The translations under genes and the position numbers were made by a program. Positions 5,197 through 11,898 of a stretch of DNA of 20,327 nt are shown in pieces. The stretch's first letter is position 1, and the number at the start of each line of letters is the position of its first letter. This stretch comes from a candidate division Zixibacteria bacterium SM23_81 (GTDB lineage Bacteria; SM23-81). The DNA lies in contig LJUY01000051.1 in assembly GCA_001304015.1 (NCBI GenBank), positions 1 through 20,327 on the forward strand. Direction: 5' to 3'. The notes under the pieces are model-generated. The model was given only the letters and a program-made list of their open reading frames with translations. It was not told where the DNA came from and did not search any database.

Positions 5197-7296
5197 CTAA
5201 TAGTCGAATTTCAAGCCACCCAGGAATGACCTGCCGTATCCGACGATCGATTTTGCATCCTCATAGATCTCAAACTCCTGATCCATCAGGTTCTCAATTC
5301 TGACAAACGCCGTCAGTCCACCAGGCAGCTTTTTATTCACACTAAGACTCACCAGGGTGTAATCGTTGAGCTTATCCTGACCACCAGATGCTTTGTAATA
5401 TCTGCTCCTGGCATCTTCTAGGGACAGCATAGTCCCAAAGCTCAAGCTGGGCAGGTAATGATACAGCCTGAAATGTGTCATGTATTTGGGTGAGTAGGCA
5501 AGTGGGTTATCCTCATCATCTTTGGTATCGGTATAGGTATGACTGAGCATTGCGCTGAAGCTGCTGATCTTCAGCCTGAGCTCCACCTCCATCCCCTGAG
5601 CCAGCGCTTCCTTGACATTTTCCCTCCTGAAAATAGGCATCCCACCAAGGGAGTCACCCGTATCCAATGCCATGATCATGTCTGTGAAATCATTTCTGAA
5701 ACCGGAAACTCTAACCAGAACAGCGTCGCTGAAACGGTGCTCCACGCCCAGATGGTAGCTCATGGAGTACTCTGGTTTCAATTCCGCATTGCCGTTTCGG
5801 TAATAAGTCTTATGATTGAACTCCTTTTCGTACAAGTCCTGTAATGAAGGTGCCCGGAAGCCTTTTCCAACAGAGGCCCGTATGTCCGTATTCGGAGAGA
5901 GCCTGTACAGCGCCCCAACCTTTGGCGTGAATTCTGTGCCCACATTGGGGTGATGATCCACACGCAGTGCGGTGATGTAGGTCATATGAGAGCTCAGTTT
6001 GATCTCATCTTTGACGAATGTGCCCAGGATGGATTGCTCCTTTTGCGGGGTGGCATTCCGGCTGAACCGCTCGTTACGGATCTCGGCGCCGGCGCTGAGC
6101 GCGTTGTTGTCGAGAAAAATCCCGTTGAAAACGCAGTCGAGCTTCATGGTACGGTTGTCATCGTCGCGGTATTCGCCCTGGAAATGGGAATAGGTGAACC
6201 CGACGGCCAGGTCCGATCTCTCGCTGAAGCTCCTCTGCCAACGACTGGCCAGGTCGATCCAGCTATCCTTGACCTTTGGCATGGACACATTTCGTAGATA
6301 TTTATTACGATAGTAACGGGAGCTCAGGTGTAACCTGTTATTCTCACCCGTGCCGATGCAGAACTTGCCCAGCAGGTTGAACTGATCATAACCGAACTTC
6401 ACGTCGTTGACATCGGGCACTCCGTCGGTCCGAATCAAATTGCCATTGATGTAATATCCGACTTTCCCAACAGTGGCGCCGTGATTTACGTTGATATTCT
6501 GAGTATTGTATTCTCCATAGGAGAGCTCAGCGCCAAATTTCGACTTTTCGGGGAACTGCTTCGTGATGATATTGATGACGCCGCCGAAGGCCTCACTGCC
6601 ATATAGGGCCGACACAGGACCCTTGACGACCTCGATCCTCTCGATCATGCCCATGGGCACCAGATTGAGATTGACGCCGGTGTGAATGTGCTCGCTTTTG
6701 GCCCGTTGGCCATCCACCAGGATCATGCTGTAGTGGGCCGGCAAACCATGTATTATCCCTGTAAATCTGCGAGCAGCGCCGTTTGGCGCCCCCCCGGAGA
6801 TATTCACCCCCGGTACCCAACGAATGGCATCCGTTAAAGTTTGTAGACCAACCCCCATGACCTCTTTTGCAGACACAAGGTTGGTTTCAATGGGAACATC
6901 TTTGAGAGAATGGATGCTGCGCGTTCCCGTGACCACGATCTCCCGTAATTCGAGAAGGGTCGGCTGAAGGAGAACATGAAGATCAGTCGTCTTACCAGGC
7001 TCGACTGCGACCTCCGCCAACACTAACTCCTTGTAGCCGACGGCGCTGAACCGCAACGCATAAAAGCCGGCAGGAACGTTCTCGATGAAGAAGTTCCCCT
7101 TTCTGTCGGATGCAGCCCCCAATGTCATCTCCTCAACAGAGACGTTCACATTTTCTAGACCCATCCCCGTCGTTTTATCGGCGACAGTGCCCTCGATGGA
7201 AACTCGCTCCTGTGCTAAGAGAGGCAGCACCACTACAAAAAGGATCAACAATGGAACCAACACGAATTGAATCACGAATTTGCCATGAATCTGCAT
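5197..7296 (-). CDS. TonB-dependent outer-membrane receptor with carboxypeptidase-regulatory-like N-domain
   Basis: 699 aa. ATG start with SD GGAGG nine bases upstream. Residues 1-29 are a signal peptide and 31-112 a carboxypeptidase-regulatory-like beta-sandwich ([34 protein letters not shown]). A TonB-box-like LREIVVTGT lies at 117-125. The plug spans ~130-246 ([55 protein letters not shown]), followed by a barrel to the C-terminus ([14 protein letters not shown]). Such receptors use TonB energy to bring in siderophores, cobalamin, glycans or other large solutes. The sequence does not identify the substrate. I found neither a cobalamin riboswitch nor the DtxR-type operator described below upstream of it. 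RidA follows in the same direction. Confidence 0.92.
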
Positions 7297-9409: not shown

Positions 9410-10396
9410 TCAAAATTTTATCCGACAACCAATGGTCGGCACGACAACGGGAGCAAAGGCAGTCTTATTTGCATAGGGCATCCTTACTCCAATGTCTATG
9501 GAACCCGCATCTTCATCACCATAAGGCTGCCAGCGGAATTTGGCCACGATACTATGGGAATATGTGCTGCTATCTTCAATTTCGCTTCCGTCGCGTTCTT
9601 GGTTGCCCCCAGCCAGCCAGCCCTGAGGCCCGCCTATGACGACGAATCTATGATTCGAGAACTCACAGCCCATGAAGGCGCGATATCCAAATTTATCTCC
9701 CAGGTCCCACCCTGACTTGGCAAAACCATCTATATCTTTCACCTCTCCCCTAAATTGGTACCATGCATCGCTGCATAGAAAAAGTGCCTCTGTAAAATGA
9801 GGGTGGGAAAGGAGAACCAGCTTGAAATCCTGACCCCCGCTCGCGATGCCGCTTTTCACCTTCTCGTCAGAGCTGATAGATGGCTTGTAACCCAATGCGA
9901 GGAGAAGGCCATCCTCCCAATCCAACCCCAGCAGTCCGGGCGATTCTGAATACACCAGATATTTGGCTGACAGCCAAATGTCTGCCAAACCATCGTCCTC
10001 GATTTCCTTCCATACAGTCTTTTTGGCTGCTGGGGACCAGACCTGTCGCCTTAAATCCTTGATCACATACGGGAAAAAGACTCCTAAGCTCAGTTTGTCG
10101 ACAATCCCGTATTCAACTCCCAGGGCAATTTGAGTCACGCTCTGATGCCACTCTTCGGGCAAATCAACCATTTTATCGTCATCTATCGAGTATGGTGAAT
10201 GGTCGTGGAGGGCTTTCCACACTTCATCGGAGTAGCATTCTTGTGCCTGGACAAATGCTACCTTGCTCCGTATTTTCACTTTCCCCTTGCCCACGTTGTG
10301 AGGACAGCCGACGGTTTCCTCTGCAAAGGCATTTCCAGTTGCTGACAAAATTATCATCCCGGCCGCCATGATCGTTAAAAAGTGCTTGTTCATCAT
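9410..10396 (-). CDS. Outer-membrane beta-barrel-like protein (phenol-degradation MetA-pathway porin-like), putative DtxR target
   Basis: 328 aa. I choose ATG 10394-10396, which has a strong AAGGAGG SD and begins a clear signal peptide (NKHFLTIMAAGMIILSATGNAFAEE). A longer frame to 10462 has neither. The mature protein shows alternating strands, with GVEYGIVDKLSLGVFFPYV, then DDGLADIWLSAKYLVY, and a C-terminal aromatic strand (VVPTIGCRIKF). This pattern recalls PF13557 (putative MetA-pathway of phenol degradation), a family of outer-membrane barrels, but I hold this loosely. Two cysteines flank the mature N-terminal part (VGCPHNVGKG, QECYSDE). Upstream at 10518-10554 lies a promoter with a DtxR-type palindrome that closely matches the one before the methyltransferase gene. 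Metal-responsive control is therefore likely. Confidence 0.72.
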   Translation of the reverse strand: MMNKHFLTIMAAGMIILSATGNAFAEETVGCPHNVGKGKVKIRSKVAFVQAQECYSDEVWKALHDHSPYSIDDDKMVDLPEEWHQSVTQIALGVEYGIVDKLSLGVFFPYVIKDLRRQVWSPAAKKTVWKEIEDDGLADIWLSAKYLVYSESPGLLGLDWEDGLLLALGYKPSISSDEKVKSGIASGGQDFKLVLLSHPHFTEALFLCSDAWYQFRGEVKDIDGFAKSGWDLGDKFGYRAFMGCEFSNHRFVVIGGPQGWLAGGNQERDGSEIEDSSTYSHSIVAKFRWQPYGDEDAGSIDIGVRMPYANKTAFAPVVVPTIGCRIKF

Positions 10397-10517: not shown

Positions 10518-10554
10518 TTTTAGGTTTGCCTAACTTCTATTCCAAAAAATTTTT
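10518..10554 (-). promoter_or_regulatory. Promoter with DtxR-type operator upstream of the outer-membrane protein gene
   Basis: Reading leftward: AAAAATTTTTTG, -35-like TTGGAA, a 17-nt spacer, then -10-like TAAAAA. The palindrome TTAGG-N4-CCTAA (10520-10533) covers the end of the spacer and the -10. The block is 31/37 identical to 11307-11343. A repeated half site GATTTTTAGG recurs 48 bp closer to the gene (10467-10476). Confidence 0.65.
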
Positions 10555-10636
10555 TTAACTTCATTTCTGCACCGCCCACTGCCGATAACCGGGAGATCGG
10601 TCTCGATGTTCATACTCTCTCGTCACCTCTGTGCCT

Positions 10637-11197
10637 TCAGACGAAGAAAAAATACCTGGGCACCTGCCCTCTATAAACAGCGTACCTCTGCCCATATTTG
10701 CGCTCCAGAAACCCCTCTTCTCTGAGCACCATCCAATGGGTCGCCGCCACATTCCACAGGGCCACAACGGCTGCCAGAATGCCCATTATCGCAGCCGGGG
10801 ACCAGGCCATAAAAGCAAAAGCGACCATAACTAAAAACATGGCCACATACATCGGGTTCCGGGACAACCGGTAGATACCCACAGTGTTTAGTCCGAGTTT
10901 CGCTTTGATAAATGCTGTAATTGACAAAACATATAGAATTCCTGCCACAAAAATGAAGGCAACACCAACCCAGAACAATGGACTGGAAACGATGGGCGTG
11001 AAAATCGACAGAACGGTGAGCGCCAAGAGCGGCGGCATGCTAAACAGGCCAGTCTTGACATTGCAGTGATCCTCCTTGTTCTCGATTTTCACCCCCCGCA
11101 GCCTGTCACCTATGGCCATGCCAGCCCAGGCAAAGAGGAATATGGGAACCAGGACCAGCCACAGCGACCATATGGTGAACATTGGGAAGCTTAGCAT
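10637..11197 (-). CDS. Isoprenylcysteine carboxyl methyltransferase/PEMT-like integral membrane protein, putative DtxR target
   Basis: 186 aa from ATG 11195-11197, which has an AAGGAGGAG SD; a longer frame to 11227 adds an arginine-rich extension with no SD. There are four or five predicted membrane segments. The C-terminal half carries the ICMT/PEMT-type signature: LSRNPMYVAMFLVMVAF, then REEGFLERKYGQRYAVYRGQVPRYF. The last part is the R-P-Y / E-E / Y..Y...V-R pattern that binds S-adenosylmethionine and substrate in this superfamily. Bacterial members are widespread and mostly uncharacterised; lipids or small hydrophobic molecules are plausible substrates. It lies between a DtxR/MntR regulator and an outer-membrane protein, and its promoter carries the same palindrome. 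A metal-linked envelope role is therefore inferred. Confidence 0.8.
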   Translation of the reverse strand: MLSFPMFTIWSLWLVLVPIFLFAWAGMAIGDRLRGVKIENKEDHCNVKTGLFSMPPLLALTVLSIFTPIVSSPLFWVGVAFIFVAGILYVLSITAFIKAKLGLNTVGIYRLSRNPMYVAMFLVMVAFAFMAWSPAAIMGILAAVVALWNVAATHWMVLREEGFLERKYGQRYAVYRGQVPRYFFFV

Positions 11198-11306
11198 CGT
11201 TCTCCTCCTTATTGAAGACCTCATCACAAGGCTTGCAACGAATCTTTCCTAATCTAGATTCGAAATAATGACAAAACGCTCGGCCTATGTTAAATTTGTC
11301 TAAATA

Positions 11307-11343
11307 TTTTAGGAGTCCCTAACTTTTATCACAAAAAATTTTT
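11307..11343 (-). promoter_or_regulatory. Promoter with DtxR-type operator upstream of the methyltransferase gene
   Basis: Leftward: -35-like TTGTGA, 17-nt spacer, -10 TAAAAT. The palindrome TTAGG-N4-CCTAA (11309-11322) overlaps the spacer and -10, where a bound repressor would block RNA polymerase. It starts about 112 nt before the ATG and just past the stop of the regulator gene. Confidence 0.68.
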
Positions 11344-11353
11344 CGCCTCACTT

Positions 11354-11821
11354 CTAAACCGTTTTCTGATGCGATTTGGCACGCACGGCGCCTTTCTTGA
11401 CGAAGTCCCCAAAGTTGGAAAAACCAGTTTTTTCCTTGAAGGGATAAGTTTCGATGAACTCCATGAATTCGACCAGCCTATCGACGGTCTCTTTGTGCAT
11501 ATGATGTTCGATTCGACAGGCATCTTCTGTAGCCACGTCCAGAGAAAGTCCTAAAATTTCATGAAAAAACTTAGTTAGGATTTTATGTCTCTCAAAGATT
11601 TTCTTGGCCCTGACCACGCCCTTCTTGGTCAGCTCCACATACCCATACCGTTCGTGGATGACCAATTCTTTCTCTGCCAGGATCTTCAGAGCTCCTATGA
11701 CCGAGGCTGCCTTGACCTGAAGAAGCCTCGCGATATCCTTGACCCGCACGATCTTCTTTTCTAAGCCGATGATCCAAATGGCTTCTAAATAATCCTCCAG
11801 GCTTGCCGTCAATTCGAGCAT
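11354..11821 (-). CDS. DtxR/MntR-family metal-dependent transcriptional regulator
   Basis: 155 aa. N-terminal winged helix (~1-65: LEDYLEAIWII; VKDIARLLQVKAASVIGALKIL; YGYVELTKKG), then the dimerisation/metal domain (~70-140). There is no C-terminal SH3-like domain, so the protein is MntR-sized. Aligning by eye, the metal ligands are Asp10 and Glu13 (as Asp8/Glu11 in MntR), His79, and Cys102-Glu105-His106. Cys102 matches DtxR/IdeR rather than the MntR Glu99. The metal (Mn, Fe or another) therefore cannot be assigned from sequence. These proteins bind DNA when metal-loaded and repress uptake genes or, less often, control efflux. A strong promoter with a palindromic operator sits directly upstream (11853-11898), so autoregulation is likely. 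The next two genes downstream carry similar operators. Confidence 0.93.
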   Translation of the reverse strand: MLELTASLEDYLEAIWIIGLEKKIVRVKDIARLLQVKAASVIGALKILAEKELVIHERYGYVELTKKGVVRAKKIFERHKILTKFFHEILGLSLDVATEDACRIEHHMHKETVDRLVEFMEFIETYPFKEKTGFSNFGDFVKKGAVRAKSHQKTV

Positions 11822-11852
11822 GGCTCATCTCCAAAATAGGATAAGCTATAAT

Positions 11853-11898
11853 TTTTAGCTTTAGCTAAAATAATAAAAATTTATGTTGGGCTTGTCAA
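11853..11898 (-). promoter_or_regulatory. Promoter and 18-bp palindromic operator of the DtxR-family gene
   Basis: Leftward: -35 TTGACA (11893-11898), 17-nt spacer, -10 TATTAT (11870-11875). The perfect palindrome TTTTAGCT-TT-AGCTAAAA (11853-11870) abuts the -10 and covers the expected start site. Its TTAGC-N4-GCTAA core has the same spacing as the two target operators. Confidence 0.8.

Follow-up and report, generated by a model that had tools for sequence, protein, structure and literature searches.

The operator of the IdeR/DtxR regulators of Actinobacteria is a 19-bp box with four CCTAA repeats, which forms two overlapping dimer sites, and it was proposed that the IdeR 19-bp consensus is reducible to a 14-bp half-site for one dimer, TTAGGNNNNCCTAA (PMC8464063). 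PgMntR of Porphyromonas gingivalis, whose metal site consists of Asp, Cys, Glu and His residues, binds both Mn and Fe tightly, serves a manganese-carrying FeoB homologue, and forms a complex with DNA that is destabilised by iron (PMC4805248). In Bacteroidetes, iron starvation induces genes for proteins like isoprenylcysteine O-methyltransferase (ICMT); upon iron limitation, the ICMT-like gene PG1868 of P. gingivalis was increased 3.7-fold and the PG1461-1469 locus 2- to 27-fold, and an ICMT-like gene of P. intermedia was increased 12.2-fold (PMC10434189). DUF4198 proteins have been tied to iron acquisition elsewhere (PMC12004947).

The locus described here is located in a window of 20,327 nucleotides (the whole stretch of DNA that was analysed) from the candidate division Zixibacteria bacterium SM23_81. 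One of its genes encodes a member of the DtxR/MntR family, with an N-terminal winged-helix domain (PF01325, Fe_dep_repress, 50.2 bits against a cut-off of 26) and a metal-binding/dimerisation domain (PF02742, Fe_dep_repr_C, 71.3 bits against a cut-off of 27), which bears out the DtxR-type regulator named in a preliminary description of this DNA. The three palindromes reported there were also verified letter by letter, TTAGGTTTGCCTAA at 10520-10533, TTAGGAGTCCCTAA at 11309-11322 and TTAGCTTTAGCTAA at 11855-11868, and these 14-mers are the only zero-mismatch matches to TTAGSN4SCTAA in the window; at up to two mismatches, the window contains 21 matches versus 19 expected, which is not above chance. 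As predicted operators of the regulator gene, a methyltransferase gene and an outer-membrane protein (OMP) gene (Table 1), the three sites support the earlier proposal of a repressor acting on itself and on these two genes. Our analysis suggests that a Fe(II)-responsive DtxR-family repressor probably controls itself, a barrel that possibly admits iron, and a PEMT/ICMT-like methyltransferase.

Table 1. Predicted features of the window and gene order at related OMP loci (op, operator; coordinates refer to the window)
Feature	Coordinates	Strand	Basis or remark
DtxR/MntR-family regulator, 155 aa, two-domain, without SH3/FeoA domain	11354..11821	-	Pfam and homology
Regulator promoter, sigma-70-type, TTGACA-17-TATTAT	11870..11898	-	11/12 consensus matches
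Primary operator of regulator, TTAGCTAAAGCTAA	11855..11868	-	exact; just downstream of -10; same place in homologues
Secondary operator copy at regulator, ATAGCTTATCCTAT	11836..11849	-	6/8 core letters; 19 bp downstream of primary
METHYLTRANSFERASE: PEMT/ICMT-like integral-membrane methyltransferase, 186 aa	10637..11197	-	Pfam PEMT, 44.6 bits
Methyltransferase promoter, TTGTGA-17-TAAAAT	11306..11334	-	9/12 consensus matches
Primary operator of methyltransferase, TTAGGGACTCCTAA	11309..11322	-	exact; runs into -10; core kept at G001 orthologue
Secondary operator copy at methyltransferase, TTAGACAAATTTAA	11290..11303	-	7/8 core letters; 19 bp downstream of primary
Predicted outer-membrane beta-barrel protein (OMP), signal peptide, 328 aa	9410..10396	-	homologues, AlphaFold model
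OMP-gene promoter-like element, TTGGAA-17-TAAAAA	10517..10545	-	register as methyltransferase promoter; weak
Operator of OMP gene, TTAGGCAAACCTAA	10520..10533	-	exact; no 19-bp partner seen
OMP loci of G154 and G290			op-op-DtxR-FeoA-FeoB-OMP
OMP locus of G037			DtxR-FeoA-op-FeoB-OMP
OMP locus of G138			op-DtxR-op-OMP-DUF4198
OMP locus of G166			FeoB-OMP-DUF4198
OMP loci of G249, G297 and G298			op-OMP, operator directly before OMP
OMP locus of G292			one-mismatch site only
OMP locus of G109			neither FeoB nor DtxR site nearby

The strict pattern, TTAGSN4SCTAA, occurs at seven sites in the whole 3.07-Mb assembly (about one per 440 kb), three of which lie inside this 1.35 kb, and the looser pattern, TTAGN6CTAA, occurs at 15 sites, again with three inside the same 1.35 kb. 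Since both counts are below those of the reversed-pattern controls (18 and 44, respectively), the number of sites is not enriched genome-wide; what goes beyond chance is the clustering of sites beside the sole DtxR-family gene of the genome, which adjoins them. The other sites were taken as background because of these control counts and were rejected as regulon members, including the strict ones inside the MreB gene, a 1818-aa ORF and a 124-aa ORF or upstream of mutS, and the looser ones, among which, of those examined, one immediately precedes an M23 peptidase gene.

The regulator's own promoter had been described as strong, with a palindrome at its start site, and the methyltransferase palindrome as lying on a -10 element. 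Both descriptions held: the operator directly follows the -10 of TTGACA-17-TATTAT in the former case and extends into the -10 of TTGTGA-17-TAAAAT in the latter. The hexamers of the OMP promoter are weaker and fell below the threshold of the consensus promoter scan. The reported 31/37 identity between the methyltransferase and OMP promoters is exact for the best 37-bp block and fits a promoter duplication; as the two promoters are near-duplicates, their sites are not fully independent of each other.

Conservation of the palindrome was analysed for 30 diverse DtxR homologues, obtained from a search of 60 genomes, by scoring TTAG-Nn-CTAA (n = 2-11) in the 150 bp preceding the start and in shuffled controls. 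TTAG-N6-CTAA was identified upstream of 10 of the 30 homologues (mean of 0.14 and maximum of 1 in the shuffles) and each of the spacers 2-5 and 7-11 upstream of none or one, with enrichment at spacer 6 only. A common layout in the homologues, TTGACA, a -10 element and then the operator, is that of the window. The preliminary description had staked its proposal on conservation of the sites upstream of orthologues, and such conservation was found for the regulator, for the methyltransferase in genome G001, and for OMP homologues in several genomes. These results indicate that the TTAG-N6-CTAA palindrome is a DtxR-family operator and that the three-promoter regulon is, at the sequence level, real and conserved.

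In G003, a genome of the same phylum, a promoter with a tandem operator, resembling the one at the G002 regulator, extends to a contig end and is cut there (L147 1-80, C13). No match to the regulator gene was found in G003, and the gene was probably lost to an assembly gap, since the G002-like promoter and operator end at the contig edge.

The 19-bp phasing of the predicted operators is a new element here, which the preliminary description had missed. In an alignment of 20 operators, the position 19 bp downstream matched the core at a mean of 4.15 of 8 letters versus 2.2 at other offsets, and none of 2000 shuffles reached this signal at any of the offsets 14-45, a control that covers the choice of offset and not the prior sight of some of the same sites, the 20 operators having been selected for an exact primary site and the phasing having been noticed before testing. 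A second copy with six or more core letters was located 19 bp downstream of seven of the 20 operators, two of them in the window, at the regulator (11836-11849) and the methyltransferase (11290-11303); the OMP gene is without one. When the whole genome was searched for the tandem pattern with up to two mismatches, only these two matches were obtained (control, 1). No enriched offset corresponding to overlapping DtxR boxes shifted by 5 bp was seen among the 20 operators. The 19-bp spacing may accommodate two adjacent dimers, separated by nearly two turns of the helix.

Related genomes connect the regulator to ferrous iron transport. In G002, which belongs to the same phylum, a homologue with 54% identity to the window's regulator is the first gene of a feoA-feoB operon and is preceded by the same kind of promoter and operator. 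Regulator homologues also head feoA-feoB in G154 and G290, and adjoin feoA/feoB in G037 and G017. In this genome, feoAB is located on another contig behind a gene that appears to be of the Fur type by reading of its translated sequence, and the arrangement in G001 is likewise; no DtxR-type operator was found at this genome's feoAB, which was rejected as a regulon target on account of the Fur-type gene upstream and the lack of an operator. This arrangement suggests that iron control is either shared by Fur and the DtxR protein or split between them, and we read it as a possible division of labour in this family, with feoAB of G002 under the DtxR protein. The Fur-type genes at feoAB (L086 5370-5816 in G000 C22, and L087 2581-3009 in G001) belong to this genus and its sister, and their promoter contains a palindromic stretch rich in TTGA/TCAA, possibly a box of their own. 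The window also carries, on the same strand, a gene for a TonB-dependent receptor of the BtuB/heme/siderophore type (5197-7296); it was rejected as a target, having no DtxR-type operator upstream.

The OMP showed no Pfam or NCBIfam match in a domain scan and no credible homologue in a sequence search of the PDB. Homologues were identified in ten other genomes among those searched, giving 11 loci with the window, and their alignment revealed an invariant N-terminal GCP motif and scattered invariant residues. AlphaFold modelled the OMP as a barrel, with low confidence (mean pLDDT of 61). Outer-membrane channels and the barrels of autotransporters shared the top structural match scores; the COG4313-type structure 4rl8 is among the best matches of this low-confidence model (Z 8.6), tied with unrelated barrels. 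The OMP gene is beside feoB at 4 of the 11 loci and beside the regulator at 5, and the operator is on the OMP gene or its cluster at 8, counts in which G154/G290 and G297/G298 are same-genus pairs and hence not independent; the exact operator is absent at 3 of the 11. Operator control of the OMP would be indirect in G037, as the site there falls between feoA and feoB, at a distance of about 380 bp from the latter. The window OMP (9410-10396) is 67% identical to that of G292 (L139 7850-8905), a genome of another phylum, and a search of three genomes from the window's own phylum gave no OMP homologue; the gene may have been transferred horizontally.

As judged from these gene neighbourhoods, the OMP family is a small, uncharacterised family linked to FeoB and DtxR, which is a new element here. 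Since the family is linked to feoB and the regulator homologues head feoAB operons, ferrous-iron uptake is the parsimonious theme of the locus. The usual assumption is that ferrous iron passes the outer membrane via unspecific porins, and against this background a dedicated, iron-regulated barrel would be a concrete candidate for another Fe(II) route. Tentatively, the OMP family may be a dedicated outer-membrane Fe(II) entry feeding FeoB and co-regulated by a DtxR-type sensor via tandem, 19-bp-phased operators for one dimer each. If true, a dedicated Fe(II) route would replace the general assumption of unspecific porins in these phyla.

The methyltransferase scored above the Pfam PEMT cut-off (44.6 versus 25 bits) and below that of the NCBIfam isoprenylcysteine O-methyltransferase equivalog (27.2 versus 160 bits), and a sequence search of the PDB yielded no homologues. 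ATG at 11197 was favoured as its start over GTG at 11227 because the orthologue in G001 starts there. This orthologue is 72% identical, is preceded by the operator TTAGTTCATGCTAA at a distance of 59 bp from its start, and is found in the order op-PEMT-TM128-TonB receptor. TM128 (L088 7908-8294, L100 1123-1527) is a small membrane protein of about 130 aa with no clear Pfam family that is found together with the methyltransferase in G001 and G154; the window's genome yielded no match to it. The OMP gene of G154 is followed by a gene for the TM128 homologue and by a truncated methyltransferase gene (L088 8297-8545), which matches the N-terminal 60 residues only and is without the catalytic half, suggesting a remnant or an assembly error.

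Which metal the regulator senses was considered from its ligand residues. The regulator has ligands at the known places (D10, E13, H79, C102, E105 and H106), of which E105 and H106 are present in 30/30 DtxR homologues; D10 and E13 are MntR-like and C102 is DtxR-like. The positions were read from an alignment with MntR and DtxR reference sequences. The MntR alignment agrees with the PDB search, and the ligand positions agree with those published for PgMntR (PMC4805248). The regulator missed the MntR equivalog cut-offs (85.2 versus 138 bits and 72.6 versus 153 bits), and, among IdeR/DtxR features, it has Cys102 but Asp at the place of Met10 and, at 155 aa, no SH3 domain. Manganese is a serious rival to iron as the metal, and the regulator could be an MntR-like manganese sensor with the barrel and the methyltransferase in a manganese regulon, since MntR is its best match in both PDB and NCBIfam searches, D10/E13 are ligands of the MntR type, and the D/C pair is shared with PgMntR, a Mn-responsive protein whose FeoB partner carries Mn (PMC4805248). 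The ligands themselves do not settle the metal, as PgMntR with the same set binds both. Against manganese are the Cys at the DtxR C102 place, the scores below the MntR equivalog cut-offs, the repeated linkage to feoA-feoB and DUF4198, and the absence of Nramp, for which no gene was found in 5 of 7 genomes including this one and only sub-cut-off fragments were found in G002 and G003. Iron is favoured because of the linkage to feoA-feoB and the absence of Nramp in this genome, and a manganese regulon seems rather unlikely.

The preliminary description had regarded the targets as unusual and proposed a metal-dependent modification of lipid or envelope, in which the methyltransferase would act on a membrane lipid or prenyl compound with the barrel as its partner. 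A membrane-bound, PEMT/ICMT-like enzyme and the neighbouring TM128 in G001 and G154 would suit this proposal, but members of the OMP family mostly occur without the methyltransferase and together with FeoB, DtxR or its operator, the methyltransferase of G001 precedes a TonB receptor, which again indicates uptake, and the feoAB operons headed by regulator homologues also speak against it; we consider it quite improbable. That the palindromes are not operators at all, and reflect chance or shared promoter ancestry, might be argued from the near-duplicate methyltransferase and OMP promoters (31/37). The regulator's site, however, differs from the other two outside the arms, conservation across phyla is specific to one spacer, the 19-bp phasing was matched by 0/2000 shuffles, and the methyltransferase orthologue of G001 keeps its site, all of which makes this explanation hardly credible.

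If ferrous iron is the signal, sufficient intracellular Fe(II) (possibly Mn(II)) would lead the metal-loaded dimer to bind the 14-bp TTAG-N6-CTAA palindrome, where it would overlap the -10 element or the start site and block RNA polymerase; 19 bp further downstream, the regulator and methyltransferase promoters could take up a second dimer. Under metal scarcity, the regulator and the two neighbouring transcription units would be released from repression. The barrel of the FeoB-linked family, whose most likely role is that of a passive iron-entry channel or docking protein, and the PEMT/ICMT-like membrane methyltransferase would then be made. Evidence for this reading includes the rise of ICMT-like genes upon iron limitation in P. 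gingivalis and P. intermedia (PMC10434189). Points against it are the operator-free feoAB of this genome behind a Fur-type gene, the iron-destabilised DNA complex and the manganese-carrying FeoB partner of PgMntR, which has the same D/C ligands (PMC4805248), the low confidence of the barrel model, and the three OMP loci that lack an exact operator, of which G109 also has no FeoB nearby.

In comparison with known systems, the barrel fold of COG4313/FapF-type outer-membrane channels is among the best structural matches of the OMP model, but identity is about 7-14%, there is no sequence-family match, and the model has a pLDDT of 61. The methyltransferase is related to PEMT/ICMT-like membrane methyltransferases, above the Pfam PEMT cut-off and below the NCBIfam ICMT cut-off. 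The regulator belongs to the same family as IdeR/DtxR of Actinobacteria, with the same CCTAA arms in its operators (PMC8464063), but it is shorter, lacks SH3, and has Asp for DtxR Met10. The window lacks the 19-bp box but has the 14-bp half-site, with two of its 14-mers equal to TTAGGNNNNCCTAA and the third nearly so. The window operators are individual sites of 14 bp, in some cases with a repeat at 19 bp, and whereas two overlapping DtxR dimers bind opposite DNA faces, dimers here may bind side by side. This offers a testable operator rule for DtxR-type regulators of little-studied phyla, namely 14-bp sites for one dimer, often followed by a second copy at a distance of 19 bp. With MntR of Bacillus subtilis and E. 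coli the regulator shares the two-domain architecture, the Asp/Glu ligands D10 and E13 and its best sequence matches, and it differs in having Cys for MntR Glu99, FeoB-linked targets and no Nramp. PgMntR is similar in its mixed D/C/E/H metal site and its link to a FeoB homologue, but carries two C-terminal FeoA domains (PMC4805248), whereas the regulator of the window has none.
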